Origin: a virus
DNA length: 64,000 nucleotides
IMG/VR virus record: IMGVR_UViG_3300021963_000100
Location: 1 to 64,000 of that record
Reading direction: 5' to 3' (one strand)
Shown here: in pieces, positions 345 through 13,900 of the stretch
How positions within the stretch are numbered: the stretch's first letter is position 1
How the letters are laid out: every line of letters starts with the position of its first letter
Notes under the pieces: generated by a model
The model's input: only the letters and a program-made list of their open reading frames with translations
What the model was told of the DNA's origin: nothing
Databases searched by the model: none
Position numbers and translations under genes: made by a program

Positions 345-376
345 TTTGCGAGTTAAATTTATTACACTTACCTTTG
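345..376 (+). promoter_or_regulatory. Bacteroidota-type promoter
   Basis: -33 TTTG at 345-348 and -7 TACCTTTG at 369-376, exactly 20 bp apart; the ATG is at 397 after an A-rich leader without a Shine-Dalgarno site. Confidence 0.9.
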
Positions 377-396
377 TATAGTTAAATCAAAACACA

Positions 397-915
397 ATGA
401 TAAAATCACTTTTCACACAAGAATGTTTATCGGTATCAGTAAACCGATTAAGCCAAGACAACAAATTGCGTTTATGTATCAGTTCGGACTTTTCGGGTTC
501 GGATAGAAAATCGCAGTTGTATGTAAATGAAAATCGTATCGCAGAGAATGTTGAAAGTTTTTGGAAATCTATTAAGACCAAGAACCTATTAGCGATGTCA
601 GTATCGTTCAGCGAAATTGATTGGTACGATGATATGACTGATGTGTACGAAACACCAATTATCCGTATGGAGAGAGGCTTAAAAAAGGCTCGTATTGGTC
701 ACCAAGACCATGGCTCAATACCAAAGGATTGGTCGGTTGATGCGTACTTTACATTCAGCGACACCACAAAGAATACACCGATACTTGAAGTAGTTAAGAG
801 TGCGTTGGGTTCTTACTTTAATAGTGATGCTGAAAAGAAGTTTACCAAAGACCTTAAAGCGTTGCTACAAAAGAAAACGCAGAGGGTGAGTTGGGAAGTT
901 GAGTATGAGTATTAA
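397..915 (+). CDS. Hypothetical protein, 172 aa
   Basis: ATG at 397 lies 20 bp after the -7 box, the standard cassette spacing here. The product is 172 residues, mixed alpha/beta, with no signal peptide or membrane segment and a C-terminal Lys-rich helix (about residues 145-160). No family or catalytic motif is recognised. It is a monocistronic cassette with its own promoter and terminator. The context suggests an early host-interaction gene, which is inference only. Confidence 0.85.
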   Translation: MIKSLFTQECLSVSVNRLSQDNKLRLCISSDFSGSDRKSQLYVNENRIAENVESFWKSIKTKNLLAMSVSFSEIDWYDDMTDVYETPIIRMERGLKKARIGHQDHGSIPKDWSVDAYFTFSDTTKNTPILEVVKSALGSYFNSDAEKKFTKDLKALLQKKTQRVSWEVEYEY

Positions 916-920
916 AATAG

Positions 921-947
921 TGGGGAAAGAAATTTCCCCATTTTTTT
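921..947 (+). terminator. Rho-independent terminator
   Basis: TGGGGAAA/TTTCCCCA stem at 921-940 followed by T7. Confidence 0.85.
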
Positions 948-956
948 GTAATAAAA

Positions 957-988
957 TTTGGTGGTTAAATAAATTATACTTACCTTTG
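957..988 (+). promoter_or_regulatory. Bacteroidota-type promoter
   Basis: TTTG 957-960, 20 bp, TACCTTTG 981-988; serves the ATG at 1008. Confidence 0.9.
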
Positions 989-1007
989 TATCATAAATCA
1001 AAACAAT

Positions 1008-1694
1008 ATGGCAAAAATAGTAATCAGTAATGTAGATTTCCCATTTGACTTGGGATGTCGTGTTCTCAAATTAAAGTACAAAGATGAATGTCCAATGGCT
1101 CAATTAGAGGACTTTTGGAATGACATTGTTCCAGCTTCGTTTAGCGATATTGCATTGTTACCTAACTTGGAACAACGCAGAATTGGTATCGTTCATTTGG
1201 GGATTGATACCATTGTTAAATCGGTTAATCCAAAATTGCTATCAAAGAAAACAATTAAAAAGCAAACCTCTTGGATTAACGAACAAGGTGAATTGGTTGA
1301 GCATAAGTTCAATGACACCTATGAGTTGTACGAAGTTGATGGCGAAGTGTTCAGTCAAGGGATAGAAAATTCTTGGCGTAAAATGGATAATTGCCACTAT
1401 ATTCGTTGCAAGGACACAAGTACGGATAGAGAGTATCTTATTTGGGTTGATTTGCAGTCAGTATATCGTACAAACGAATTGGGTGATATGTGGAATTGGG
1501 ATAAGAGTAAGATTAACGCTACCCAATGTATTGCTTGGACTATTCAAACCAATGTACCAATCGGTAAGATTGACAAAATCATTCGTCAAGGTGATTGCGT
1601 TATGATTAAACCAAAAGGTAAGTATGAGCCTTTGAGTACGGCAAGACACCTAACCGAAAAAGAATATCTTAATTTACTTGTTGCAGAAAGTTAA
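1008..1694 (+). CDS. Hypothetical phage protein, 228 aa
   Basis: Start ATG 1008 lies 19 bp past the -7 box. The 228-residue product is soluble with no signal peptide. The stretch LGIDTIVKSVNPKLLSKKT (about residues 65-83) and the following DTYELYEVDGEVF resemble conserved hypothetical phage proteins I have seen, but I cannot name a family. It is the largest gene of the first 6 kb. No terminator follows; the next promoter starts within 10 bp of the stop. Confidence 0.85.
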   Translation: MAKIVISNVDFPFDLGCRVLKLKYKDECPMAQLEDFWNDIVPASFSDIALLPNLEQRRIGIVHLGIDTIVKSVNPKLLSKKTIKKQTSWINEQGELVEHKFNDTYELYEVDGEVFSQGIENSWRKMDNCHYIRCKDTSTDREYLIWVDLQSVYRTNELGDMWNWDKSKINATQCIAWTIQTNVPIGKIDKIIRQGDCVMIKPKGKYEPLSTARHLTEKEYLNLLVAES

Positions 1695-1701
1695 GATAAA
1701 A

Positions 1702-1733
1702 TTTGCAAGTTAAATTTATTACACTTATCTTTG
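1702..1733 (+). promoter_or_regulatory. Bacteroidota-type promoter
   Basis: TTTG 1702-1705, 20 bp, TATCTTTG 1726-1733; serves the ATG at 1754. Confidence 0.9.
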
Positions 1734-1753
1734 TATCATAAAATCATTACACA

Positions 1754-2020
1754 ATGAAAAAATCGTTAAAAAAGCACACATTGTTGGTTGGTGAGGGTAT
1801 CAATCAGCACACACTCTACGGAAGTTTCTCTATGGATACTGATGTAGTAGATTTCCACGAAATAACTATCAAAGAAGATAGTGAGTTGAAACACGAAAAG
1901 CCGAATGGTGCGTGGAGTAACGAACACAAAACTTTGAAAGTTGATAAAGGTGATTGGGTTATGGGTAAGCAAGTTGAGTACAACCCATTCAACCAACAAG
2001 TAACACGAATTTGGGATTAG
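1754..2020 (+). CDS. Hypothetical protein, 88 aa
   Basis: An 88-residue soluble protein with a basic N-terminus (MKKSLKKHTLL) and predicted beta-rich body. No family is recognised. It occupies a single-gene cassette with promoter upstream and hairpin terminator downstream. Confidence 0.8.
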   Translation: MKKSLKKHTLLVGEGINQHTLYGSFSMDTDVVDFHEITIKEDSELKHEKPNGAWSNEHKTLKVDKGDWVMGKQVEYNPFNQQVTRIWD

Positions 2021-2022
2021 TT

Positions 2023-2050
2023 AAAGGGGAAAGAAATTTCCCCTTTTTTA
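2023..2050 (+). terminator. Rho-independent terminator
   Basis: AAAGGGGAAA/TTTCCCCTTT inverted repeat with trailing T-run. Confidence 0.85.
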
Positions 2051-2058
2051 TAGTAAAA

Positions 2059-2090
2059 TTTGCAGGTTAAATTTATTGTATGTACATTTG
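2059..2090 (+). promoter_or_regulatory. Bacteroidota-type promoter
   Basis: TTTG 2059-2062, 20 bp, TACATTTG 2083-2090; serves the ATG at 2111. An in-frame ATG at 2060 lies inside the promoter and is not used. Confidence 0.9.
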
Positions 2091-2110
2091 TACTATCAAA
2101 ACAAAACACA

Positions 2111-2530
2111 ATGGCAAATCCTTTAATTCATTCAAAAAGTTCAGTTAAGCGTTGGGGTGGTAAAGTAGAAGATTACTTGGCAATCCACGAACTGATTGAT
2201 AGTCCGAAAGCGACTATGAACAACAATTCAGCGAGGTTATTAACACATAACACTTGGTTCGCTTACACTATTGTTCCAAAGATATTCGGTTACAATATAA
2301 CCAATTCGGATGGAAAAAGTGTTGATGTGGTTGATATTGCTATGTTGCACATATTGGAAGATTTCCGTATGAAGTTCGTACCAACGCCACAAGATTATCT
2401 TAAACACTTGGAAGTGCAAGAGTGGATGTGCAACGGAGTTAAATTAGTTGAAAACCCCGAAGCGATTGAAACTGCAAATCTTTTCTTGGAAAAATTAAGA
2501 AAAGAAAATGAAGAAAAGTTTGCGAGTTAA
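2111..2530 (+). CDS. DUF6915-like protein, 139 aa
   Basis: The start was moved to ATG 2111 because the longer frame begins inside the promoter. The N-terminus NPLIHSKSSVKRWGGKVEDY followed by IHELIDSPKA, then NSDGKSVDV and a proline-containing C-terminal segment, matches from memory a family of small phage and bacterial proteins with the pattern 'HPLIHAkSS...GGkpeDYl.IH.wfDesKa', which I believe is catalogued as DUF6915. Function is unknown. The last codons (encoding FAS and the stop) double as the -33 box of the next promoter. Confidence 0.75.
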   Translation: MANPLIHSKSSVKRWGGKVEDYLAIHELIDSPKATMNNNSARLLTHNTWFAYTIVPKIFGYNITNSDGKSVDVVDIAMLHILEDFRMKFVPTPQDYLKHLEVQEWMCNGVKLVENPEAIETANLFLEKLRKENEEKFAS

Positions 2531-2550
2531 ATTTATTACACTTATCTTTG
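2519..2550 (+). promoter_or_regulatory. Bacteroidota-type promoter overlapping a coding end
   Basis: TTTG 2519-2522 lies inside the last codons of the upstream gene; 20 bp later TATCTTTG 2543-2550. The ATG follows at 2570. Confidence 0.88.
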
Positions 2551-2569
2551 TATCATAAATCAAAACAAT

Positions 2570-3211
2570 ATGCAAGAAATAATTAAAAAATGGAACGAGG
2601 CTAACATTTCATACGCTGAATTTCAGTTCAGTTGTGGTGGTGATAGTATGAACGACACCTCACTATCATTCTATGATGTAGATGGTAATGTCGTTGATGA
2701 AAGTGGTAACTTGGAAAGTTACTTTGAAGATGAGGTGTATAAAAATGTTCAGTTCTACGAAGCATCCGATGGACACTATATTGGTGAAAGTGGTTGTGTT
2801 CGTATTGAATTGTCTGATGAGGGTGATGAGTTTTATTACACCAAATCAGCAGAAGCTGAATGGTCGGAAAACAAAAGTGGTGAAGTTTTAGTACCAATTA
2901 CTGATGAGGAATTTAAGATACTTGATGAATACATTTTGGGTATGGCTAATTCAAGTTGGAATGGTGCGAGTGTTGATTACAAAAAAGATTTTATCTTAAC
3001 TGATGAACTTGAAGTTGCTATCAAAGATTTGCAAGATAAATTTGAAAACCACTCATACGATTTCCAACCCGAAACAAGAGGTGAGGTTGAAGATGAGAGC
3101 CACCGATTTAACACAACAAACGAAATGGAGTTTGTTTATGTTGATGGTGTGCGACACTTGAAACTATTTGTTGAGTGTAATTGTATTGAATACACCGATA
3201 GTGAAGATTGA
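2570..3211 (+). CDS. Acidic hypothetical protein, 213 aa
   Basis: A strongly acidic 213-residue protein (many DE-rich stretches such as ELSDEGDEF) with no signal peptide or membrane segment. No family is recognised. The acidity could indicate DNA mimicry or binding to a basic partner, but nothing in the sequence shows this directly. It is a single-gene cassette with its own promoter and terminator. Confidence 0.82.
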   Translation: MQEIIKKWNEANISYAEFQFSCGGDSMNDTSLSFYDVDGNVVDESGNLESYFEDEVYKNVQFYEASDGHYIGESGCVRIELSDEGDEFYYTKSAEAEWSENKSGEVLVPITDEEFKILDEYILGMANSSWNGASVDYKKDFILTDELEVAIKDLQDKFENHSYDFQPETRGEVEDESHRFNTTNEMEFVYVDGVRHLKLFVECNCIEYTDSED

Positions 3212-3236
3212 TTTGTGATTTGATTTTGATAAACAA

Positions 3237-3261
3237 GAGGGGAACGAAAGTTCCCTTTTTT
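3237..3261 (+). terminator. Rho-independent terminator
   Basis: GGGAAC-gaaa-GTTCCC hairpin with a GNRA-type loop and T6 tail. Confidence 0.82.
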
Positions 3262-3270
3262 GTTAATAAT

Positions 3271-3282
3271 TTTCGATCAAAA
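3271..3282 (+). promoter_or_regulatory. Imperfect TTTCGATCGAAA palindrome
   Basis: TTTCGATCAAAA directly abuts the -33 box of the next promoter; one mismatch to the perfect palindrome found at four other places in this region. Confidence 0.55.
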
Positions 3283-3283
3283 A

Positions 3284-3315
3284 TTTGCGAGTTAAATTTA
3301 TTATAAGTATCTTTG
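3284..3315 (+). promoter_or_regulatory. Bacteroidota-type promoter
   Basis: TTTG 3284-3287, 20 bp, TATCTTTG 3308-3315; serves the ATG at 3337. Confidence 0.9.
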
Positions 3316-3336
3316 CACTATCAAAAACAAAACAAC

Positions 3337-3588
3337 ATGGCTAAGTTACCAAAACCAAAATTCTACCAATCGGTACTAAAAGAAATTAAAGGGAATGTAC
3401 TTGATGAGGTATATCCGTTTCATAAAGGGCAAATCACTATGACCGAACGAATGGGTGGTGAGGAAGCCAAATGTCCAGAATGTAGCAACAATGAATGGTA
3501 TCTATTACCAGAAGATAGTGTTGCAGTTAGAGAGGGTGGGAAACCTTATATTGAATGTCTAAATTGTGGATATCAAACACACTTATAA
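3337..3588 (+). CDS. Small zinc-ribbon protein, 83 aa
   Basis: Start set at ATG 3337, because an upstream in-frame ATG lies in the promoter's transcript-start region. The C-terminal half holds CPEC, about 30 residues, then CLNC: two CxxC knuckles typical of a zinc ribbon. The product may bind nucleic acid or a protein partner; no specific family is recognised. It is followed after 2 bp by the next ORF, so the two are co-transcribed. Confidence 0.8.
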   Translation: MAKLPKPKFYQSVLKEIKGNVLDEVYPFHKGQITMTERMGGEEAKCPECSNNEWYLLPEDSVAVREGGKPYIECLNCGYQTHL

Positions 3589-3590
3589 TT

Positions 3591-3824
3591 ATGGCAAAAG
3601 CATTTAAACCTTATGTTCGTTATACGGACGAGAACGGAAAGCAAAAAGGAATAGAGGTATCAACATACGCTGAAGTTAAACGGAGAATGAATTCGTTTAT
3701 GAAAGACAGTTTTGATGAGAATGTTGCGGTCTACCGACACAGACGAGGTGAGTGGGGTGAGTGGTTTGAGTTTTGGTCTAAGGTTGGCAAAACACCTAAG
3801 ATATATAAACAAGGGTGGATGTAA
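3591..3824 (+). CDS. Hypothetical basic protein, 77 aa
   Basis: Start set at ATG 3591, 2 bp after the stop of the zinc-ribbon gene; an upstream in-frame start would overlap that gene. The product is basic and rich in Trp and Tyr near its C-terminus (WGEWFEFWSKVG). Function unknown. It forms a two-gene operon with the zinc-ribbon protein, suggesting a shared job. Confidence 0.75.
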   Translation: MAKAFKPYVRYTDENGKQKGIEVSTYAEVKRRMNSFMKDSFDENVAVYRHRRGEWGEWFEFWSKVGKTPKIYKQGWM

Positions 3825-3841
3825 AAAAAATTGTAATAAAA

Positions 3842-3873
3842 TTTGGTGGTTAAATTTATTGTACTTATCTTTG
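3842..3873 (+). promoter_or_regulatory. Bacteroidota-type promoter
   Basis: TTTG 3842-3845, 20 bp, TATCTTTG 3866-3873; serves the ATG at 3893. Confidence 0.9.
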
Positions 3874-3892
3874 TACCATAAATCAAAACACT

Positions 3893-4258
3893 ATGAACAT
3901 TTATAGAAAAGAAGGTACTTACCTTGTTAGAGAAAAGAAAACCAACACATTTGTTCGTTGGACTGACGGAAAGATATTCTTTGCAGGTAGCAGGGAAGAC
4001 GCTTTACTTGGATTAACTGAAGATGAGTTCGAGGCGTTACGAGTTTGTGATTGTCCCGATGATATCCAAAAGGAATACGAGGAAAGAATCATTGAGTGCA
4101 TTCATAGTGGGGAACTTGAGGTTGAAGACATCTTACCAAAGGAAATTAAGGTTGGGGTTTATTATTACATTGATGATGAGGGTAAACCACAATTTGATAC
4201 TGATGAGATGAGAAATGAATTCGAGGCGTATATAACTGAATTAGAAAAACTATCATAA
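3893..4258 (+). CDS. Acidic hypothetical protein, 121 aa
   Basis: A 121-residue acidic soluble protein starting at ATG 3893, 19 bp after the -7 box. No family is recognised. It is the first gene of a two-gene unit; the next ATG follows the stop by 1 bp, so translational coupling is likely. Confidence 0.8.
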   Translation: MNIYRKEGTYLVREKKTNTFVRWTDGKIFFAGSREDALLGLTEDEFEALRVCDCPDDIQKEYEERIIECIHSGELEVEDILPKEIKVGVYYYIDDEGKPQFDTDEMRNEFEAYITELEKLS

Positions 4259-4259
4259 T

Positions 4260-4469
4260 ATGAACGAGTTAGAACAATTAAAACACCGACTAGCCATGGT
4301 TGAGGACGATCTAAAGGTTATTCGTGCATTCATCTATGAGAATGGATTGGATGAGACATTTCAAAAGCCGACAGGTATGGCAGATGAGTGTTGGACACAC
4401 TTAAATAACATTGAGATTGCTTGTGATTTGTCTAGTGATGAATCATTAACTTGGAAACATTTTTCATAA
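4260..4469 (+). CDS. Hypothetical helical protein, 69 aa
   Basis: Starts 1 bp after the stop of the upstream gene. The N-terminal 25 residues form a likely coiled-coil helix (LEQLKHRLAMVEDDLKVIRA). Function unknown; probably acts with its operon partner. Confidence 0.75.
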   Translation: MNELEQLKHRLAMVEDDLKVIRAFIYENGLDETFQKPTGMADECWTHLNNIEIACDLSSDESLTWKHFS

Positions 4470-4474
4470 TAAAA

Positions 4475-4506
4475 TTTGGTAGTTAAATTTATTATACTTA
4501 CCTTTG
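4475..4506 (+). promoter_or_regulatory. Bacteroidota-type promoter, leaderless transcript
   Basis: TTTG 4475-4478, 20 bp, TACCTTTG 4499-4506. The ATG at 4511 is only 4 bp beyond the -7 box, so the mRNA is probably leaderless. Confidence 0.88.
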
Positions 4507-4510
4507 TAGT

Positions 4511-4726
4511 ATGAAAGAAACAATAAGACAAAAACTAATCAACGCCATCTTTGATATGGCGGGTGATGAGATAGAAACCATTGAGGATGCAAAGAAATTT
4601 GCGAAGATGTCCGATGAGCAATTGGTTGATGAGATTATCAACATAGCTGAATACTATCGCACACAATCAAATAGTGTGGGTGACGATTTTAGAACCTTTA
4701 ATGAGGCACCATATGGAAACGATTAA
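4511..4726 (+). CDS. Hypothetical helical protein, 71 aa
   Basis: A 71-residue, mostly helical protein. ATG 4511 sits 4 bp after the -7 box, unlike the usual 20 bp, so translation probably starts at the mRNA's first bases. The 3' end overlaps the next ORF by 14 bp. No family is recognised. Confidence 0.78.
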   Translation: MKETIRQKLINAIFDMAGDEIETIEDAKKFAKMSDEQLVDEIINIAEYYRTQSNSVGDDFRTFNEAPYGND

Positions 4727-4925
4727 AAGACAAGACGCCATTAATAAATTGGTTGATGATGATATCGATTCATTTGTGACGGGTCATTATGACGGGGATG
4801 ATTCATACGCAGCATCTTTATTAGAGTACGGGCATAAAGGTTATGCTGAATACACTAATGAAGAACTGGCAAGTGAATTATTTGAGCGATTTGATTTCAA
4901 CAAATTTAATGTTATTGAAGATTAA
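4713..4925 (+). CDS. Acidic hypothetical protein, 70 aa
   Basis: I chose ATG 4713 over an earlier in-frame ATG to minimise overlap (14 bp) with the upstream gene. The product is acidic and helical, with no recognised family. It is likely translationally coupled to the preceding leaderless gene. Confidence 0.7.
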   Translation: METIKRQDAINKLVDDDIDSFVTGHYDGDDSYAASLLEYGHKGYAEYTNEELASELFERFDFNKFNVIED

Positions 4926-4937
4926 TTTGTAAAAAAG

Positions 4938-4969
4938 TTTGCAGGTTAAAAAAATTATACTTACCTTTG
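4938..4969 (+). promoter_or_regulatory. Bacteroidota-type promoter
   Basis: TTTG 4938-4941, 20 bp, TACCTTTG 4962-4969; serves the ATG at 4991. Confidence 0.9.
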
Positions 4970-4990
4970 TATTCATAAATCAAAAACAAT

Positions 4991-5554
4991 ATGGGACAGT
5001 ATTACAAACCCGCAATTTTGGGTGAAAACAAAAAAACAGTTAAAGCGTGGGTTTATTCACACGACATTGAGGAAGAATGGACACGTGAAGACGGGTCTGT
5101 ATTCAAATGTGGTTCAGGCCTTAAACTAATGGAACATTCTCGGTTAAAGAATGGTTTTGTTAGGGCGTTCGAAACATTAATCGCTGATAATCCTAAAAGG
5201 GTTGTTTGGGCGGGAGATTATGCAGATGAATGCAAAGGTCGTAAAAGCAATGTATATAGTCGTTGCAAAGATACCGAAAAGGTTATCCCAAACGTACCAA
5301 AAGAAGACGAAGATTATCGTTTCGTAATTAACCACACAAAGAAATGTTATGTGGATAAAACCGAAGTGCCAGATAATGACGGTTGGAGAATTCACCCTTT
5401 ACCACTATTAACTTGCGAGGGCAATGGTCGTGGCGGTGGAGATTACAGAGGTGAAAGTTCCTTAATTGGATTGTGGGCGAGAGATGTAGTTTCTGTTAGT
5501 AACACAGAACCGAAAGAGTTTGAAAAGTTTGAATTCGATTTAGTCGAAGATTAA
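4991..5554 (+). CDS. Conserved hypothetical phage protein (MGQYYKP family), 187 aa
   Basis: The 187-residue product begins MGQYYKPAILGENKKTVKAW and contains YSHD, GLKLMEHS and VVWAGDYADE. This arrangement is familiar from conserved hypothetical proteins of phages and bacteria, but no function is assigned. There is no signal peptide. It carries several Cys and His residues (CKGRK, SRCKD, KKCYVD) that could bind metal, though no clean zinc motif is visible. It sits in a single-gene cassette. Confidence 0.82.
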   Translation: MGQYYKPAILGENKKTVKAWVYSHDIEEEWTREDGSVFKCGSGLKLMEHSRLKNGFVRAFETLIADNPKRVVWAGDYADECKGRKSNVYSRCKDTEKVIPNVPKEDEDYRFVINHTKKCYVDKTEVPDNDGWRIHPLPLLTCEGNGRGGGDYRGESSLIGLWARDVVSVSNTEPKEFEKFEFDLVED

Positions 5555-5583
5555 GAGAATGTACTTGTGTTTTGATTAGGTTA

Positions 5584-5602
5584 GGGGGCGAAAGCCCCTT
5601 TT
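5584..5602 (+). terminator. Rho-independent terminator
   Basis: GGGGC-gaaa-GCCCC hairpin followed by T4. Confidence 0.8.
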
Positions 5603-5614
5603 CCTTTGCATTCA

Positions 5615-5628
5615 TTTTCGATCGAAAA
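5615..5628 (+). promoter_or_regulatory. TTTTCGATCGAAAA palindrome
   Basis: Perfect 14-bp palindrome about 16 bp upstream of the -33 box of the promoter at 5644; candidate operator. Confidence 0.6.
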
Positions 5629-8795: not shown

Positions 8796-8800
8796 TTAGA

Positions 8801-8822
8801 ACGGGGAGAAATCCCCGTTTTT
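8801..8822 (+). terminator. Rho-independent terminator
   Basis: ACGGGGA-gaaa-TCCCCGT hairpin with T5. Confidence 0.82.
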
Positions 8823-8845
8823 GTTGTTTAAAACTTTGTTGAAAA

Positions 8846-8877
8846 CTTGTGGGTTAAATTTATTATATATACCTTTG
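8846..8877 (+). promoter_or_regulatory. Bacteroidota-type promoter
   Basis: CTTG 8846-8849, 20 bp, TACCTTTG 8870-8877; serves the ATG at 8904. Confidence 0.85.
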
Positions 8878-8903
8878 CATCATAAAACAAAGACAAAAAC
8901 AAA

Positions 8904-9107
8904 ATGAGAAACGAAAAAACTTGGTACGAAGTATTTAAACGAAACGAAGACGAAAGCACCGAAACTATTTTTGCTGATGCTGACTTGGAGACTTGCGTTA
9001 AAGTGTATCGTAAGGAAAAAATTAAAGACCGCTCAGTTAAAATAGATAAGTGGTTAGATGCGTCTTATTTAGACTTTCCAATCCCTATTAAATCAATCCT
9101 AAATTAA
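8904..9107 (+). CDS. Hypothetical protein, 67 aa
   Basis: A 67-residue charged protein with no recognised family. Its stop overlaps the start of the next gene (TAATG), a tight translational coupling. First gene of a two-gene unit. Confidence 0.78.
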   Translation: MRNEKTWYEVFKRNEDESTETIFADADLETCVKVYRKEKIKDRSVKIDKWLDASYLDFPIPIKSILN

Positions 9108-9286
9108 TGGACAAAGAAACATTAATAATTAAACGGATATTACTCGAGGAACGATATAGAACCCTTTCGGATCTATGGGAGCCTAAAAGTAAACACCACA
9201 CCCACTTAAATATATCAAAGAAAATGGATGATGTTATACGAGAGTTAGATGAGGTAAAAAAACTTATGGGAAAATTTGGAGGTTAA
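9107..9286 (+). CDS. Hypothetical helical protein, 59 aa
   Basis: Short ORF starting MDKETLIIKRILLEERYR and ending KKLMGKFGG. The TAATG overlap with the upstream stop supports it. Helical and basic, with no recognised family. Its final codons (AAA TTT GGA GGT TAA) contain the -33 box of the next promoter. Confidence 0.72.
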   Translation: MDKETLIIKRILLEERYRTLSDLWEPKSKHHTHLNISKKMDDVIRELDEVKKLMGKFGG

Positions 9287-9306
9287 ATTTATTGTACTTA
9301 TCTTTG
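9275..9306 (+). promoter_or_regulatory. Bacteroidota-type promoter overlapping a coding end
   Basis: TTTG 9275-9278 inside the preceding gene, 20 bp, TATCTTTG 9299-9306; serves the ATG at 9327. Confidence 0.88.
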
Positions 9307-9326
9307 TATCATAAAATCAAAAAACA

Positions 9327-9677
9327 ATGAAGGCTTTTAAAATTAATTCAGCAGAACGCAAGGTTGAGGAAATCGAAATCAACTCTTGGGAAGACATTGC
9401 ACCAGCAATCGGAAACGAGTGTACAACATTTGCTTGTCCCGTAACATTCGAAAATGAGGACACAATCTATGTAGATGATGAAGGGTTGTATCATCCATTT
9501 GAAGGTGGCTTTATGATGGAAAATTGGAACTACCCTTGCGTTGGAAATGGTATCTTACAAGGTACAGATGATGAGGGGGAAAGCACCGAGCCATTAACCA
9601 CAAAGGAAGAATTGGAAGCAATGATTATTTGGGTTGACAAGGTGAAGTGTTCAATTTGGGCATCACAATTTAATTAA
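9327..9677 (+). CDS. DUF3846-like protein, 116 aa
   Basis: The N-terminus (MKAFKINSAERKVEEIEINS), then YVDDEGLYH, a conserved P..GNGIL and GTDDEGES, follows the layout of small phage and plasmid proteins I associate with DUF3846 (VDeEGL ... G.G...GtDeEGe). Function unknown. I cannot confirm the family without a profile search. Single-gene cassette. Confidence 0.7.
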   Translation: MKAFKINSAERKVEEIEINSWEDIAPAIGNECTTFACPVTFENEDTIYVDDEGLYHPFEGGFMMENWNYPCVGNGILQGTDDEGESTEPLTTKEELEAMIIWVDKVKCSIWASQFN

Positions 9678-9680
9678 CGG

Positions 9681-9707
9681 AACGGGGAGAAATCCCCGTT
9701 TTTTTTT
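9681..9707 (+). terminator. Rho-independent terminator
   Basis: AACGGGGA-gaaa-TCCCCGTT hairpin with a long T-run. Confidence 0.85.
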
Positions 9708-9716
9708 GCAATAAAA

Positions 9717-9748
9717 TTTGGTGGTTAAATAAATTATACATATCTTTG
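9717..9748 (+). promoter_or_regulatory. Bacteroidota-type promoter
   Basis: TTTG 9717-9720, 20 bp, TATCTTTG 9741-9748; serves the ATG at 9772. Confidence 0.9.
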
Positions 9749-9771
9749 TACTATCAAAATCAAAACAAACA

Positions 9772-9975
9772 ATGGCAAAGAAAAAACAATTTGATGTAAT
9801 CAGCCCCGATGGGTTTAGCATCCACCACAGCAACACCTACAACACCAAAGAAGAGGCAATGAACGCTTTCTTTGAGTGGAAGAAACGCTACGAGCAACAA
9901 GGGTATTATTCATCTAATAGAGGTAGAATCCCTTTGGATGAGTTGGAGAATCATTGTAGAATCGTTGAGGTATAA
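9772..9975 (+). CDS. Hypothetical protein, 67 aa
   Basis: A 67-residue protein with layout FDVISPDGFSI ... YNTKEEAMNAFFEWKKRYE. The strand-turn-helix pattern is often seen in small phage proteins. No function is known. Single-gene cassette. Confidence 0.78.
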   Translation: MAKKKQFDVISPDGFSIHHSNTYNTKEEAMNAFFEWKKRYEQQGYYSSNRGRIPLDELENHCRIVEV

Positions 9976-9979
9976 TTAA

Positions 9980-10006
9980 AGGGGAACAAATGTTCCCTTT
10001 TTTTTT
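9980..10006 (+). terminator. Rho-independent terminator
   Basis: GGGAACA/TGTTCCC stem followed by a T-run. Confidence 0.85.
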
Positions 10007-10013
10007 GTTAAAA

Positions 10014-10045
10014 TTTGCGAGTTAAATTTATTACACTTACCTTTG
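10014..10045 (+). promoter_or_regulatory. Bacteroidota-type promoter
   Basis: TTTG 10014-10017, 20 bp, TACCTTTG 10038-10045; serves the ATG at 10068. Confidence 0.9.
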
Positions 10046-10067
10046 TATCATAATCAAAACAAACAAA

Positions 10068-10412
10068 ATGAAAAAGTTATTTATTATTTCAGCAGTGCTA
10101 TTAGCCACAACAAGTTTAAAAGCACAAACCGTAATTGGCGACACATTAAAGACCAATTCACAATGGGTTAAAACCAAAGCAGTTTTACCAAAAGATGTTA
10201 GCGATGTTATGACAATCGTTAGGAACAACGAGGAGAACACATTGGTAGTTGAATTCGCCAAACATTTAACACAAGATGAGTTGGAGTTGGTTAAAAACTA
10301 TGTTCGTTTTTATTACGATTGGGGTAACGAGCAAGGGGGTTATAATTGTAACGCACCAGATGTTTACAACCAAAAGAAAACTTGCAAACTGATATTCTAT
10401 AAAAGGGGTTAA
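10068..10412 (+). CDS. Secreted protein, 114 aa
   Basis: MKKLFIISAVLLATTSLKAQ is a typical Bacteroidota type I signal peptide, with likely cleavage after LKA. The mature part of about 95 residues is soluble with two Cys near the C-terminus (YNCNAP, KTCKL). No family is recognised. Secretion to the periplasm suggests action on the host envelope (inference). Confidence 0.8.
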   Translation: MKKLFIISAVLLATTSLKAQTVIGDTLKTNSQWVKTKAVLPKDVSDVMTIVRNNEENTLVVEFAKHLTQDELELVKNYVRFYYDWGNEQGGYNCNAPDVYNQKKTCKLIFYKRG

Positions 10413-10417
10413 AAGAG

Positions 10418-10440
10418 AGGGGAGAAATCCCCTTTTTTTT
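10418..10440 (+). terminator. Rho-independent terminator
   Basis: AGGGGA-gaaa-TCCCCT hairpin with T7. Confidence 0.85.
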
Positions 10441-10449
10441 GTTAATAAC

Positions 10450-10461
10450 TTTCGATCGAAA
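10450..10461 (+). promoter_or_regulatory. TTTCGATCGAAA palindrome
   Basis: Perfect 12-bp palindrome abutting the -33 box at 10463; candidate operator. Confidence 0.6.
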
Positions 10462-10462
10462 A

Positions 10463-10494
10463 TTTGCGAGTTAAATTTATTATAAGTACATTTG
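10463..10494 (+). promoter_or_regulatory. Bacteroidota-type promoter
   Basis: TTTG 10463-10466, 20 bp, TACATTTG 10487-10494; serves the ATG at 10521. Confidence 0.9.
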
Positions 10495-10520
10495 TATCAT
10501 AAATCAAAAAACAAAGTATT

Positions 10521-10895
10521 ATGAACAATCCATTTCCAAGACCACAAGCTGGGGCTTACAAATCTTACTTAGTTGAGGCTCTTAACAAAATCGGTAGAAC
10601 AACCGAAGCAAGTGAATTCGCAAACGGCAATATGAAACTTGCCATTGTATCAAGTATTACGGGTGGGGTTAGATTATTCCCCGAGTTGAATTCGGTGTGT
10701 GCTAATTCATTAAATGAGTTAGAGCCAAACGATACAATCCGTTATTACTTTTGGGGTTTATCAAACGGGCAGTTCGCAGTTGCATCAAGTAACGGAGCTT
10801 ATGTTTATGACCCAACCGACAAGAAAGCCGTTGAGTATGTGAAAGAGCAAGTTGAGAAAAGCGACAATGAAATCATTCAACCATATTTCAGTTAA
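10521..10895 (+). CDS. Hypothetical protein, 124 aa
   Basis: A 124-residue soluble protein beginning MNNPFPRPQAGAYKSYLVEA, with a beta-rich centre and a helical, acidic C-terminus. No family is recognised. Its promoter carries the CGATCG palindrome, so it may share a regulator with 5697, 12641 and the RNA at 13749. Confidence 0.8.
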   Translation: MNNPFPRPQAGAYKSYLVEALNKIGRTTEASEFANGNMKLAIVSSITGGVRLFPELNSVCANSLNELEPNDTIRYYFWGLSNGQFAVASSNGAYVYDPTDKKAVEYVKEQVEKSDNEIIQPYFS

Positions 10896-10899
10896 TTAA

Positions 10900-10924
10900 A
10901 GGGGGAGAAATCCCCTTTTTTTTT
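10900..10924 (+). terminator. Rho-independent terminator
   Basis: GGGGA-gaaa-TCCCC hairpin with T9. Confidence 0.85.
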
Positions 10925-10933
10925 GCAATAAAA

Positions 10934-10965
10934 TTTGCACATTAAATTTATTATACTTACCTTTG
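10934..10965 (+). promoter_or_regulatory. Bacteroidota-type promoter
   Basis: TTTG 10934-10937, 20 bp, TACCTTTG 10958-10965; serves the ATG at 10991. Confidence 0.9.
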
Positions 10966-10990
10966 TATCATAATCAAAAACAAATAAAGT

Positions 10991-11185
10991 ATGGCGACTT
11001 ATTATGTAACAATCATGTCAATCGACCCCGATGACCACTATGGAAGAGAGCAAGGGGATGACCACCAAAAGTACGGGTTTGATGTTCAAGCGAACAACAA
11101 ACGAGATGCCGAAGAAAAGGGTGCAGAAGAATTTAAAAGACGATACCCAGGTTTACCAATCTATTGGGTTAAGGCTGAAATTTAA
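10991..11185 (+). CDS. Hypothetical protein, 64 aa
   Basis: A 64-residue protein with an N-terminal beta strand (MATYYVTIMSIDPDDHYG) and a charged helix (NKRDAEEKGAEEFKRRYPG). No family is recognised. Single-gene cassette. Confidence 0.78.
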   Translation: MATYYVTIMSIDPDDHYGREQGDDHQKYGFDVQANNKRDAEEKGAEEFKRRYPGLPIYWVKAEI

Positions 11186-11189
11186 TTAA

Positions 11190-11217
11190 AGGGGGGGACA
11201 AAAAAGTCCCCTTTTTA
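11190..11217 (+). terminator. Rho-independent terminator
   Basis: GGGGAC-aaaaaa-GTCCCC hairpin with T5. Confidence 0.82.
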
Positions 11218-11249
11218 TTTGCATATTAAATAAATTACACTTACCTTTG
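11218..11249 (+). promoter_or_regulatory. Bacteroidota-type promoter
   Basis: TTTG 11218-11221, 20 bp, TACCTTTG 11242-11249; serves the ATG at 11271. The -33 box directly abuts the upstream terminator. Confidence 0.9.
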
Positions 11250-11270
11250 TACTATCAAAATCAAAAAACA

Positions 11271-11501
11271 ATGTATAAAGTAGAATCAAATCAGTACATC
11301 CCTTACAAACCAAAGAGTTTGCCAAGTGGAATGCCAGCTTGTAGCACTTACTATTATGTAACAAACGAGCAGGGTAAGGTAATAAGCCACAAGACCTTAA
11401 AACCTTATAGAGGTAAAGATATGGCTAACTACAAATTTAATAGCCAAGAGGGTGCAGAAAGTTTTGCAAAAAAGTTGAATGAAAGTTTGGTAGTTAAATA
11501 A
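11271..11501 (+). CDS. Hypothetical protein, 76 aa
   Basis: Start set at ATG 11271. A basic Tyr-rich 76-residue protein, unrecognised. The final codons AGT TTG GTA GTT AAA TAA are at once the C-terminus (SLVVK, stop) and the start of the next promoter. Confidence 0.78.
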   Translation: MYKVESNQYIPYKPKSLPSGMPACSTYYYVTNEQGKVISHKTLKPYRGKDMANYKFNSQEGAESFAKKLNESLVVK

Positions 11502-11517
11502 ATTATACTTACCTTTG
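11486..11517 (+). promoter_or_regulatory. Bacteroidota-type promoter overlapping a coding end
   Basis: TTTG 11486-11489 inside the upstream coding sequence, 20 bp, TACCTTTG 11510-11517; serves the ATG at 11544. Confidence 0.88.
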
Positions 11518-11543
11518 TATTCACAAATCAAAAAACAAACAAA

Positions 11544-11747
11544 ATGAAATCAACATTCTACTACATCACATTCATTGCATTCACTATCTTTGCATTTTGG
11601 GTTGCATTCACTTGGGATATCCCCGTTAACAATCAAATGGGTATGGCTTTTATGGGGGTTATGTGTTTCTCATTATTAGTTCTTTTAATCATTGAGGATA
11701 TAAAGGAATTTGTTAAAAAGAGAAAAAATAAACCCCAAACATTTTGA
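11544..11747 (+). CDS. Small membrane protein, 67 aa
   Basis: Two predicted transmembrane segments (about residues 5-24 and 34-52) followed by a basic tail KKRKNKPQTF. No family is recognised. The stop TGA overlaps the TTTTG -33 box of the next promoter. Confidence 0.78.
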   Translation: MKSTFYYITFIAFTIFAFWVAFTWDIPVNNQMGMAFMGVMCFSLLVLLIIEDIKEFVKKRKNKPQTF

Positions 11748-11773
11748 TATTAAATAAAATATTCATATATTTG
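11743..11773 (+). promoter_or_regulatory. Bacteroidota-type promoter, leaderless transcript
   Basis: TTTG 11743-11746, 19 bp, TATATTTG 11766-11773. The ATG at 11778 is 4 bp beyond the -7 box. Confidence 0.8.
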
Positions 11774-11777
11774 TAAT

Positions 11778-12137
11778 ATGAAAAAAATATTGACCTTAAT
11801 TGCATTCGCTTTGATTGTATTCAGTGCGAGTGCTAAAGAAACGGAACCGACATTGGTATTAGAATACTACTATACAAATAAAGCGGATAGCGTTTATATT
11901 AGTAATAGCATTAAGTCGGATGAAAGTTTGTGTTGCTCATTTGTGGTTGTATTAAAACCTTCAAAAACAAACGGGAGTGAAACGCAAATTAAACATAGGG
12001 AAACGGGGATTGTTCTTGGAACAATTTACGGAACACCAACAAAAGAGTTCTTGGTTTTTGTTCAGCAAAATTATTTAACCGAGCAATATATAAATGATAT
12101 TGTACCGAGAATAGTTGCGACAAAACCAAGTAATTAA
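11778..12137 (+). CDS. Secreted protein, 119 aa
   Basis: Signal peptide MKKILTLIAFALIVFSASA with likely cleavage after SASA. The mature part is about 100 residues, beta-rich with two adjacent Cys (CC at about residue 52). No family is recognised. The mRNA is probably leaderless. Confidence 0.8.
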   Translation: MKKILTLIAFALIVFSASAKETEPTLVLEYYYTNKADSVYISNSIKSDESLCCSFVVVLKPSKTNGSETQIKHRETGIVLGTIYGTPTKEFLVFVQQNYLTEQYINDIVPRIVATKPSN

Positions 12138-12165
12138 AGAGTGTTTTTTTGATTAGATGAGGAAT

Positions 12166-12199
12166 GGGGGTTAAACGAAAGTTTGCCCCTTTTCTTTTT
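12166..12199 (+). terminator. Rho-independent terminator
   Basis: GGGG..AAAC-gaaa-GTTT.CCCC hairpin and T-rich tail. Confidence 0.78.
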
Positions 12200-12223
12200 A
12201 ATTAAAAAAAAATTACATTAAAA

Positions 12224-12255
12224 TTTGCAAGTTAAATTTATTACACTTACCTTTG
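12224..12255 (+). promoter_or_regulatory. Bacteroidota-type promoter
   Basis: TTTG 12224-12227, 20 bp, TACCTTTG 12248-12255; serves the ATG at 12283. Confidence 0.9.
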
Positions 12256-12282
12256 TATCATAAATCAAAAAACAAAAACAAA

Positions 12283-12537
12283 ATGAAAAAACAAGTTAAC
12301 AAATTAGAAAAGAACTTTGATAAATTTTTTGCGGTGTATTATATCTTATTCGGTGTAATGCTTTTAACAACTTTAGTAAATGTAGCAAATGATTGTTTCA
12401 TTTTCAAAGTTACTGAATTGGTTATGGGGGTTACTTTTATGGTAACAATGTTTGCCCCTGTATTGCTTTATGGTTTATTATATTGGGTATATGAAAACCA
12501 AAAGAAACAAATACAAACTGGCAACATAGCAGGTTAA
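12283..12537 (+). CDS. Small membrane protein, 84 aa
   Basis: Start set at ATG 12283 (MKKQVNKLEKNFDKFF). There are two predicted transmembrane segments, about residues 16-35 and 47-70, with a charged N-terminus. No family is recognised. Confidence 0.78.
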   Translation: MKKQVNKLEKNFDKFFAVYYILFGVMLLTTLVNVANDCFIFKVTELVMGVTFMVTMFAPVLLYGLLYWVYENQKKQIQTGNIAG

Positions 12538-12541
12538 TTAA

Positions 12542-12564
12542 AGGGGGCGAAAGCCCCTTTTTTA
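12542..12564 (+). terminator. Rho-independent terminator
   Basis: GGGGC-gaaa-GCCCC hairpin with T6. Confidence 0.85.
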
Positions 12565-12573
12565 TTTAATCAA

Positions 12574-12585
12574 TTTCGATCGAAA
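12574..12585 (+). promoter_or_regulatory. TTTCGATCGAAA palindrome
   Basis: Perfect 12-bp palindrome 1 bp before the -33 box at 12587; candidate operator. Confidence 0.6.
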
Positions 12586-12586
12586 A

Positions 12587-12618
12587 TTTGTAGGTTAAAT
12601 TTATTATACTTACCTTTG
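12587..12618 (+). promoter_or_regulatory. Bacteroidota-type promoter
   Basis: TTTG 12587-12590, 20 bp, TACCTTTG 12611-12618; serves the ATG at 12641. Confidence 0.9.
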
Positions 12619-12640
12619 TCCTATCAAAATCAAAAAAACA

Positions 12641-12886
12641 ATGGCAACAAAAACATTCAAGTCCGAGTATCATTCAGGGGGTATTATTAAAGTAACCACC
12701 GATGAAAAGAAAAAGAAAGTAACCTTTGTAGTTTGCGACCACGAGTATTCATTTGATACTAATGATAGCAGAGCAGAAACACAAATGGATAATTTCTTAT
12801 TTGAGAATACAAGTTCATATTATGCAGAGCAAATACTAAATTGGGTTAAGAGTAAAATAAAAATTGAAACACCTTCATTTTGGTAA
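12641..12886 (+). CDS. Hypothetical protein, 81 aa
   Basis: An 81-residue soluble protein with a beta-rich N-terminal half and helical C-terminal half. No family is recognised. Promoter with CGATCG palindrome. Confidence 0.78.
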   Translation: MATKTFKSEYHSGGIIKVTTDEKKKKVTFVVCDHEYSFDTNDSRAETQMDNFLFENTSSYYAEQILNWVKSKIKIETPSFW

Positions 12887-12891
12887 TTATT

Positions 12892-12919
12892 AAAGGGGAC
12901 AAAAAAGTCCCCTTTTTTT
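12892..12919 (+). terminator. Rho-independent terminator
   Basis: AGGGGAC-aaaaaa-GTCCCCT hairpin with T6. Confidence 0.85.
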
Positions 12920-12928
12920 ATATTAAAA

Positions 12929-12960
12929 TTTGCATATTAAATATATTACATATATCTTTG
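12929..12960 (+). promoter_or_regulatory. Bacteroidota-type promoter
   Basis: TTTG 12929-12932, 20 bp, TATCTTTG 12953-12960; serves the ATG at 12983. Confidence 0.9.
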
Positions 12961-12982
12961 TATCATCAAATCAGAAAACACT

Positions 12983-13378
12983 ATGAAAAAATCCCTAATC
13001 GTAATGGTTGCAATGTTGGGAGTAACATTGACCACAAAAGCACAAGTAATTGTAAGCGGTAAATTTGTAGACGCTAAAGCGACCTTTAGAGTTTACGAGA
13101 TGCAAGAGGATAGTACCTTTGCTGAAATATCCGCAAATCTAACTAACAATGCAAAGCCAAAGCACCGCTATGCTATTGAATTGGAAGATAACAAAGTTTA
13201 TATTGTTAATTTTACCAACGAAGACAATAAAACTAAATCAATGAAGTTTATATCTTATCAGTCGGGAGATATTGACTTAGACGTAAACTTTAAGACAACC
13301 AAAGATGCTTATGTTACAATTAAAAATAACAAGGCATACGTCAAACGAACAAACGAAAAACTTTTAGCAGTAAATTAA
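12983..13378 (+). CDS. Secreted beta-rich protein, 131 aa
   Basis: Signal peptide MKKSLIVMVAMLGVTLTTKA with cleavage likely before QVIVSG. The mature part, about 110 residues, is predicted beta-rich. It resembles no family I can name. Third secreted product of the array. Confidence 0.8.
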   Translation: MKKSLIVMVAMLGVTLTTKAQVIVSGKFVDAKATFRVYEMQEDSTFAEISANLTNNAKPKHRYAIELEDNKVYIVNFTNEDNKTKSMKFISYQSGDIDLDVNFKTTKDAYVTIKNNKAYVKRTNEKLLAVN

Positions 13379-13382
13379 TTAA

Positions 13383-13406
13383 AGGGGAGAAATCCCCTTT
13401 TTTTTA
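13383..13406 (+). terminator. Rho-independent terminator
   Basis: AGGGGA-gaaa-TCCCCT hairpin with T8. Confidence 0.85.
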
Positions 13407-13414
13407 TGCTCAAA

Positions 13415-13446
13415 TTTGTGAGTTAAATTTATTATATATACCTTTA
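13415..13446 (+). promoter_or_regulatory. Bacteroidota-type promoter, variant -7
   Basis: TTTG 13415-13418, 20 bp, TACCTTTA 13439-13446; serves the ATG at 13474. Confidence 0.78.
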
Positions 13447-13473
13447 CATTATAAATCAAAAAACATATTTGTT

Positions 13474-13662
13474 ATGAAAAAATTAGTTCTTTTAGTAATG
13501 GTTTCAGTGATGGCGATTGGAACAAGTTTTGCAAACGATGGAGTTAAGAAGTTGAAAAAGCACAAGAGAGTTAAATATCATCAGTGCGATGCTTATAAGA
13601 CACACTACGCACCGATTAAGCCCGAAAGACACAAACACCACACTTGCGATGCTTATAATTAA
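13474..13662 (+). CDS. Secreted His/Cys-rich small protein, 62 aa
   Basis: Signal peptide MKKLVLLVMVSVMAIGTSFA. The mature part, about 42 residues, is very basic and His-rich with two copies of a CDAY unit (YHQCDAYKTH and HHTCDAYN). The His/Cys content suggests metal binding (inference). No family is recognised. Confidence 0.75.
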   Translation: MKKLVLLVMVSVMAIGTSFANDGVKKLKKHKRVKYHQCDAYKTHYAPIKPERHKHHTCDAYN

Positions 13663-13666
13663 TTAA

Positions 13667-13689
13667 AGGGGACGAAAGTCCCTTTTTTA
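13667..13689 (+). terminator. Rho-independent terminator
   Basis: GGGAC-gaaa-GTCCC hairpin with T6. Confidence 0.85.
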
Positions 13690-13699
13690 TTTAATTAAT

Positions 13700-13711
13700 T
13701 TTCGATCGAAA
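13700..13711 (+). promoter_or_regulatory. TTTCGATCGAAA palindrome
   Basis: Perfect 12-bp palindrome directly abutting the -33 box at 13712. Confidence 0.6.
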
Positions 13712-13743
13712 TTTGCAGGTTAAATTTATTATACTTACCTTTA
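13712..13743 (+). promoter_or_regulatory. Bacteroidota-type promoter for RNA B
   Basis: TTTG 13712-13715, 20 bp, TACCTTTA 13736-13743. No gene starts at the usual distance. Confidence 0.8.
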
Positions 13744-13748
13744 CATTG

Positions 13749-13821
13749 TCAATGAGAAATCGAGACGGGCGGGGGTAAGACCACGAAGTAAATCAGAAGT
13801 ACGTTGCCCTATATTTTTTTT
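13749..13821 (+). ncRNA. Candidate small RNA B
   Basis: A standard cassette promoter is followed by about 73 bases that contain only an 8-codon ATG frame (13752-13778, including the stop), then a T-run at 13813-13821 that could end the transcript. GGGC near the 5' part can pair with GCCC before the T-run. The sequence is homologous to the minus-strand candidate at 7262-7332, and similarity outside the promoter argues for a functional RNA. Role unknown. Confidence 0.6.
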
Positions 13822-13822
13822 A

Positions 13823-13831
13823 TGTGGATAA
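13823..13831 (-). other. DnaA-box-like nonamer
   Basis: TGTGGATAA (reverse complement of TTATCCACA) immediately after the T-run of RNA B. Confidence 0.45.
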
Positions 13832-13869
13832 CTTGTTAATAACTATCATAAAAATAATTACCCCAAAAT

Positions 13870-13900
13870 TTTGCCATTAAAGGACAATACCATACCTTTG
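13870..13900 (+). promoter_or_regulatory. Bacteroidota-type promoter
   Basis: TTTG 13870-13873, 19 bp, TACCTTTG 13893-13900; serves the ATG at 13923. Its spacer differs from the common cassette spacer. Confidence 0.82.

Follow-up and report, generated by a model that had tools for sequence, protein, structure and literature searches.

The window analyzed here is a 64,000-base stretch of viral DNA (positions 1 to 64,000 of IMG/VR record IMGVR_UViG_3300021963_000100, a jumbo phage fragment totaling 71,718 bases), and its first 14 kb hold a module of about 30 near-identical promoters, most of which stand before one small gene. The module is probably a terminator-promoter cassette array in the early (host takeover) region of a jumbo phage that is T4-like and has a Bacteroidota host. 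As such, it would resemble the PeSLs, reportedly described by Arbiol in 2010 and by Comeau in 2014 as composite early-promoter and stem-loop cassettes of T4-like myoviruses. The anatomy of the units, their confinement to a single module, its presence in relatives, the shuffling of its genes, and a different box elsewhere in the genome were all observed directly.

The pattern TTTG-N19..21-TAnnTTTG matched the window 30 times, versus 2.68 matches expected (standard deviation [SD], 1.76; maximum, 7 among 100 shuffles), and 27 of the 30 fell within 345 to 13900. Twenty-five of these 27 had a 20-base spacer (N20), and the other two, at 11743 and 13870, were N19. TTAAA, which the pattern did not require, began at an offset of 8 bases from the first T of TTTG in 25 of the 25 N20 sites. 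An iterated weight matrix found 32 cassette promoters at 345 to 13712 (31 on the plus strand and 1 on the minus strand at 7369), with both boxes exact in 25 of them and of the sigma-ABfr type (TTTG and TAnnTTTG at ∼20 bp). The rest of the window and the final 11.2 kb of the record had no such site, and 40 dinucleotide shuffles gave none above a score of 10. These counts bear out the initial annotation, which placed a family of about 30 such cassettes at 345 to 13900. Escherichia coli-type sigma-70 promoters gave little signal (66 versus 56.1 expected; SD, 8.3). Mean pairwise identity was 0.73 in the spacer, 0.60 in the leader, 0.31 upstream, and 0.27 inside the open reading frames (ORFs). The claim that spacer and leader are both conserved thus stood for the spacer, whereas the leader was conserved more loosely than claimed: ATCAAAA was present in 25 of the 32 leaders and the full AAATCAAAACA in just 7. 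The quoted spacer GTTAAATTTATTATACT occurred exactly in 4 of 32 and with at most two mismatches in 21.

We defined 32 plus-strand units from the 31 plus-strand matrix hits and the N19 promoter at 13870. An ORF was present in 31 of these units; a false second ORF that the script assigned to unit 345 (905 to 1030) was removed by hand. The proposal that each promoter drives one gene held for the 27 units with a single ORF and failed for 4 with two genes and 1 with no ORF. Leaders, measured from a start site placed 5 nucleotides (nt) after the −7 box, were mostly 13 to 22 nt long, with two leaderless units (4475 and 11742), and their sequence fits the A-rich translation starts of Bacteroidota. Terminators were found in 19 units (18 by script, plus the hairpin of unit 345 at 919 to 942), usually with the next promoter following immediately, forming composite terminator-promoter gaps. 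The expectation that most units end in a hairpin was correct to that extent, but its GAAA loop was found in just 12 of the 19. In the region as a whole, 48 terminator-like sites were counted versus 8.7 expected (both strands, nested sites included), and the ends of several genes are overlapped by the promoter that follows. Among the 35 module ORFs, one ORF apiece matched each of four PHROG families, to which no function is assigned, and each of four Pfam families (a ribbon-helix-helix and three domains of unknown function); one methyltransferase model of a defense library was matched weakly. Small and presumably early, with nearly all functions unknown, these genes are candidates for host takeover proteins.

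A scan of 2.9 million viral contigs with the promoter pattern returned 38 stretches, and their parent records include G017 (298,833 bases). G017 encodes a T4-type gp23 capsid (1.2e-74), a baseplate-wedge protein, and an RNA ligase; a sheath match in G017 fell under the cutoff. By the gp23 capsid of this relative, the window's phage is putatively T4-like. Window genes from 14.9 to 49 kb correspond to G017 at 155 to 184 kb in inverted order. The cassette promoters of G017 number 61 and form a single ∼30-kb block (186.4 to 215.8 kb; divergent point, ∼204.5 kb); because of this, the window's module is probably truncated by the contig end. Positions 1 to 14000 of the window had no megablast match among 50,697 phage records. 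Rfam gave nothing above threshold in positions 1 to 16000, and two subthreshold matches there were judged to be chance.

Gene order in the module differs between the two phages. Reciprocal-best comparison of the window with G017 paired 25 module genes; 16 of these are colinear, and adjacency is retained in 7 of 15 testable neighbor pairs, whereas 25 of the 26 reciprocal-best genes in the adjacent core are colinear (module versus core, Fisher P = 0.005). Module proteins are nonetheless more alike than core proteins (median, 72% versus 52%). No reciprocal match in G017 was found for 13 of 38 module ORF calls, a few of which are overlapping or false ORFs. Module genes thus seem to move, come, and go and yet stay similar, as would be expected from cassette exchange between phages. 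Together with identical promoter-leader blocks, as long as 55 bases, before unrelated genes, the reshuffling and the unmatched genes support the suggestion of gene-by-gene acquisition into a shared cassette. For a PeSL-like, cassette-mediated exchange, the putative traces seen here are the identical promoter-leader blocks alone.

Outside the module, promoters look different. From 14.5 to 64 kb, the host-type −7 box is nearly absent before ORFs (2 sites, both lacking the −33 TTTG). Upstream regions at 14.5 to 49.2 kb carry CTATTTAT in 8 of 23 cases (0.1 expected) and TATTTATA in 11 of 23 (0.6 expected), and those of G017 outside its module carry CTATTTAT in 13 of 124 and GATATTTA in 15 of 124 (0.6 expected for each). 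The short box AACTATTTATA / GATATTTATA, enriched before late-region genes, resembles but is not identical to the T4-type late TATAAATA. If this likeness to a T4-type late box is meaningful, it would indirectly support an early role for the module.

These features suggest how the array might work. Most of the small genes lie in units built from a strong host-type promoter, a brief A-rich leader, and a single ORF, frequently closed by an intrinsic terminator, so that many gaps are composite. On entry, the host polymerase with its primary sigma, sigma-ABfr, or with a close copy of that sigma encoded by the phage, would begin transcription at every unit simultaneously. The conserved spacer would act as an A/T tract from −28 to −18, placed where this class of polymerase favors A/T, and would make the promoters unusually strong and uniform. 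Copying of promoter-leader blocks among units would keep the promoters alike, and the repeated cassettes would provide homology for recombination, by which genes could be gained, lost, and reordered with ready-made expression signals. Later genes would be read from the short box.

The likeness to PeSLs, as these are described in a citing passage, lies in the repeated intergenic terminator hairpin with an early promoter, the plastic region of small orphan genes, and the shuffling, as well as in the capsid gene that makes the relative G017 T4-like; the window record itself is a fragment that lacks a capsid gene. The array differs from PeSLs, as far as that passage describes them, in its Bacteroidota-type promoter, letter-perfect spacer tract, A-rich leader, and roughly one promoter per gene over 30 kb. 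The “uber” early promoters of T4 are described as having an extra consensus beyond the sigma boxes and as outcompeting host promoters (PMC2988021), and RB69 has 57 putative early promoters, 13 of them before novel ORFs (PMC1524935). The cassette promoters share the existence of an extra consensus with the T4 early promoters so described but belong to another sigma class and carry the additional conserved sequence within the spacer. The Kayvirus vB_SauM-515A1 likewise combines early host-type promoters (58) with separate late promoters; its transcriptome sequencing, as reported, resolved 26 early-controlled transcription units, many of them multigene, and 23 predicted promoters changed nothing (PMC7698491), which warns against equating promoters with transcripts. 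Moraphages, freshwater Bacteroidota jumbo phages with genomes of up to 307 kb, are reported to have a sigma factor among their shared genes and to carry T4-type structural genes (PMC12619734). G017 has matching kinds of genes, and the main text of that report uses the word “promoter” once, concerning a homing endonuclease. A promoter of the present type in phages was not described in the titles and abstract openings of the literature searched, which covered few subscription papers. The array would extend the T4-like terminator-promoter cassette principle to Bacteroidota jumbo phages with a divergent sigma.

To examine the spacer, we aligned ∼230 promoters in four sets, namely, the window (W; 33 promoters), G017 (J; 63), three related records, G005, G009, and G022 (N; 120), and G028 (K; 17), a number that lets boxes, spacer tract, and leader be separated. 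Sites were selected by a core that included TTAAA with at most two mismatches. Among promoters with both boxes exact, spacer information was 1.30 (W), 1.32 (J), 1.38 (N), and 1.51 (K) bits per position versus 0.21 in 30 host sites, a weak sample since N20 was no commoner than other spacings in Lutibacter and Flavobacterium. The check on whether the spacer is no more conserved than in host promoters thus left the claimed conservation standing. TTAAA was present in 33/33 (W), 120/120 (N), and 17/17 (K) promoters and at 97 to 100% per position in J; selection by the boxes only still gave TTAAA in 25/25 window sites and 44/45 sites of the G017 module. Before host ORFs, intergenic TAHHTTTG sites had TTAAA at −28 to −24 in 0/84, 2/70, and 1/45 cases in three genomes (3/199 in all), a count that errs high because the genomes were found via the TTAAA pattern and the Lutibacter and Flavobacterium stretches include the seed site. 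Mixed 8-kb host loci (TTAAA in 19/66) were left out of this count because they had been fetched by the same pattern. Exact boxes with TTAAA occurred 37 times across 149 Bacteroidia genomes. A composition-matched control, AATTA, returned at least 120 stretches of viral contigs, as did TTAAA, so that the totals are not comparable; among the 80 matches listed for each, stretches with at least two matches numbered 5 for TTAAA and 0 for AATTA. Outside the G017 module, TTAAA was found in 7 of 22 host-type promoters (versus 3/199 host sites, P = 4e-6), TTWAA in 11, and ATT at −20 in only 2; therefore, TTAAA is not specific to the module.

The initial annotation took a fixed spacer to be something that a sigma factor should not produce, which is too strong for Bacteroidota. 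Sigma-ABfr promoters are described as having −33 TTTG and −7 TAHHTTTG boxes, A/T motifs at −18 and −28, and adenines upstream of the start codon, and among 241 promoters of Flavobacterium johnsoniae, the A/T motifs centered on −18 and −28 were more pronounced than the −33 element (PMC6847099). On the numbering of that report, the phage TTAAA lies at −28 to −24 and ATT at −20 to −18, in line with these motifs. The cassette boxes and their distances match sigma-ABfr promoters, with start sites 4 to 5 nt after the −7 box, and the promoters are predicted to depend on sigma-ABfr. Host spacers are A/T rich without a fixed sequence, in which they differ from the phage's. Among 25 different promoters preceding host 16S genes (13 loci), the spacing was N19 in 20, TTAAA occurred in 2, and A was found at each of positions 12 to 15 from the −33 box in 19 to 22. 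Strong host promoters likewise fix a spacer A-tract, a few bases from the phage's tract. Since host promoters carry A/T motifs or an A-tract there, the spacer may be read by RNA polymerase or by the sigma that the phage itself encodes (in G017), and a separate activator would not be needed. Most simply, polymerase would recognize this stretch, probably via its shape, and the phage promoters would have been driven to an extreme. The array also makes directly testable what share of Bacteroidota promoter strength resides in the spacer.

A dedicated reader, either a phage or host DNA-binding protein or a sigma-ABfr-like phage sigma, might instead require TTAAA-N3-ATT and switch the promoters as one regulon, which we think somewhat unlikely. 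The letter-perfect TTAAA of all four phage sets, its rarity in the host samples described above, and its occurrence both inside and outside the G017 module, as a phage-wide factor predicts, argue for such a reader. Two candidates exist: a ribbon-helix-helix protein encoded inside the module (5697 to 5891), a gene with no match in G017, and the G017 sigma-70 (265 amino acids [aa]; 12235 to 13032, minus strand). The latter is 45 to 47% identical to its best matches, the primary-type sigmas of four Bacteroidota genomes, with a nearly identical region 4.2 helix and ∼16 residues missing in region 3. No sigma gene was found in the 71.7-kb window record, a fragment. Against a dedicated reader, too, the conserved stretch sits where host promoters already favor A/T, and phage lineages agree at −28 to −24 but differ at −17 to −14. 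In a more specific form, which seems rather unlikely to us, the diverged phage sigma with its shortened region 3 would require TTAAA (and ATT) between the boxes, and the spacer would be the true recognition element. A mark nearly absent from host promoters would then draw polymerase off host genes with the −33 and −7 boxes unchanged. A second, weakly sigma-like G017 protein had no Pfam or PHROG match at an E value of 0.001. A multisubunit phage RNA polymerase was rejected as the reader, with no beta-prime match in G017 or in G000, which is a fragment.

Promoter-leader copying does happen, because promoter-plus-leader blocks of 41 to 55 identical bases recur before unrelated, distant genes; three pairs of promoters are also identical 32-mers. 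The sameness could then be nothing but recent copying, one cassette having spread by duplication or gene conversion with the spacer free of selection, and orthologous promoters are indeed closer than random pairs between J and N (0.723 versus 0.619; 0 of 5,000 permutations) and between W and J (0.628 versus 0.577; P = 0.017). Between W and N they are not (0.601 versus 0.586; P = 0.19), and conservation is uneven: positions 4 to 7 and 19 to 23 vary, whereas TTAAA, A16, and T18 hardly do. Positions next to these constant ones vary with the lineage (window, GTTAAATTTATTATACTTA; J and N, GTTAAATTTATTTCACTTA; K, GTTAAAAAAAATATATATA), and K keeps the invariant positions in an otherwise very different spacer. 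Copying by itself would not explain constant bases beside lineage-varying neighbors, and we consider it an improbable full account.

Repressor arrays such as the stoperators of mycobacteriophage L5 also consist of many near-identical, promoter-overlapping sites. By analogy, the spacer tract could be an operator at which a repressor, bound between the boxes, silences the small genes in a carrier or lysogenic state, and palindromes (TTTCGATCGAAA) do lie ∼10 nt upstream of some promoters. The conserved tract is, by eye, not palindromic, however, and neither an integrase nor a repressor was found when the 35 module ORFs and selected, not all, window ORFs were searched against Pfam and PHROGs. The relative G017 has the T4-type capsid, and phages with that capsid are known as a lytic group. 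An operator is highly improbable.

Several points weigh against the cassette array as we describe it. A preference for A/T does not alone predict exact TTAAA, and the reason for a letter-perfect TTAAA is the point that this reading leaves unexplained. The host samples are not from the phage's host, and the spacing test indicates that two of the three consist partly of chance “promoters.” Neither a capsid nor a sigma gene was found in the 71.7-kb window record, a fragment; both are known from G017. That the module is early and is expressed gene by gene we infer from sequence in both cases. No terminator was found in 13 of the 32 plus-strand units, and four units have two genes; with so many units lacking a found terminator, read-through across some gene groups is likely.

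The units of the module, with strand in parentheses, are as follows.

345-942 (+): unit 1; promoter 345-376, gene 397-915, terminator 919-942 (GAAA loop)
957-1694 (+): unit 2; promoter 957-988, gene 1008-1694, terminator not found
1702-2046 (+): unit 3; promoter 1702-1733, gene 1754-2020, terminator 2023-2046 (GAAA)
2059-2530 (+): unit 4; promoter 2059-2090, gene 2111-2530 (DUF6915), no terminator; gene end overlapped by next promoter
2519-3259 (+): unit 5; promoter 2519-2550, gene 2570-3211, terminator 3236-3259 (GAAA)
3284-3824 (+): unit 6; promoter 3284-3315, genes 3337-3588 and 3591-3824, terminator not found
3842-4469 (+): unit 7; promoter 3842-3873, genes 3893-4258 and 4260-4469, terminator not found
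4475-4925 (+): unit 8; promoter 4475-4506, genes 4511-4726 and 4701-4925; leaderless, the ATG lying at the predicted start site
4938-5600 (+): unit 9; promoter 4938-4969, gene 4991-5554, terminator 5583-5600 (GAAA)
5644-5891 (+): unit 10; promoter 5644-5675, gene 5697-5891 (ribbon-helix-helix)
5885-6230 (+): unit 11; promoter 5885-5916, gene 5935-6195, terminator 6203-6230
6267-6591 (+): unit 12; promoter 6267-6298, gene 6319-6591
6609-7248 (+): unit 13; promoter 6609-6640, gene 6665-7186 (paralogue of 13923-14450), terminator 7212-7248
7265-7369 (−): ORF-less promoter 7369-7338; putative small RNA, 3′ end not defined
7410-7602 (+): unit 14; promoter 7410-7441, gene 7462-7602
7621-7909 (+): unit 15; promoter 7621-7652, gene 7673-7888, terminator 7894-7909 (GAAA)
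7928-8404 (+): unit 16; promoter 7928-7959, gene 7981-8379, terminator 8381-8404 (GAAA); 55-base promoter-leader block same as at 12587
8418-8821 (+): unit 17; promoter 8418-8449, gene 8475-8795, terminator 8798-8821 (GAAA)
8846-9286 (+): unit 18; promoter 8846-8877, genes 8904-9107 and 9107-9286
9275-9702 (+): unit 19; promoter 9275-9306, gene 9327-9677, terminator 9679-9702 (GAAA)
9717-10001 (+): unit 20; promoter 9717-9748, gene 9772-9975, terminator 9978-10001
10014-10438 (+): unit 21; promoter 10014-10045, gene 10068-10412, terminator 10413-10438 (GAAA)
10463-10919 (+): unit 22; promoter 10463-10494, gene 10521-10895, terminator 10898-10919
10934-11214 (+): unit 23; promoter 10934-10965, gene 10991-11185, terminator 11191-11214
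11218-11501 (+): unit 24; promoter 11218-11249, gene 11271-11501; gene end overlapped by next promoter
11486-11747 (+): unit 25; promoter 11486-11517, gene 11544-11747
11742-12137 (+): unit 26; weakest promoter 11743-11773 (N19), gene 11778-12137, leaderless; imperfect hairpin ∼12166-12196, by eye only
12224-12561 (+): unit 27; promoter 12224-12255, gene 12283-12537, terminator 12540-12561 (GAAA)
12587-12915 (+): unit 28; promoter 12587-12618, gene 12641-12886, terminator 12892-12915
12929-13400 (+): unit 29; promoter 12929-12960, gene 12983-13378, terminator 13381-13400 (GAAA)
13415-13686 (+): unit 30; promoter 13415-13446, gene 13474-13662, terminator 13665-13686 (GAAA)
13712-13821 (+): unit 31; promoter 13712-13743, no ORF; putative small RNA, end near T run
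13870-14511 (+): unit 32; promoter 13870-13900 (N19), gene 13923-14450, terminator 14479-14511

ORF-less cassette promoters were also seen in G017 (186534, minus; 196003, plus; 189958, minus) and in stretch L106 (871, minus). They mostly precede GGGC-rich sequences resembling related putative small RNAs, and several adjoin the paralogues at 6665 to 7186 and 13923 to 14450 or their orthologue. A single well-folded RNA family is kept as no more than a lead, as z relative to shuffles was below −2 in one of five sequences folded (−2.31 in J; the others, +0.42, +0.05, −0.42, and −0.08). The two paralogues (173 to 175 aa) are ∼80% identical to one G017 protein, have no Pfam match, and are both followed by the same TTATCCACA...TGTGGGTAA terminator. 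The palindromes, with the core CGATCG, lie at 5619, 10453, 12577, and 13703 (and at 3270 with one change) and account for four of the five CGATCG copies in the window. The module ends (14505 to 14720) in a C-rich stretch with a repeated AAAAAAATTTCTGGGAG element. A resemblance between GACGGGCGG and the decoding region of 16S RNA was dropped as too short. Finally, two giant ORFs of 3,852 and 3,592 aa lie at 49274 to 60832 of the window and at 405 to 11183 of stretch L009; the second consists mostly of Gly-Thr-Ser collagen-like repeats, and its C terminus resembles a tail fiber chaperone domain.

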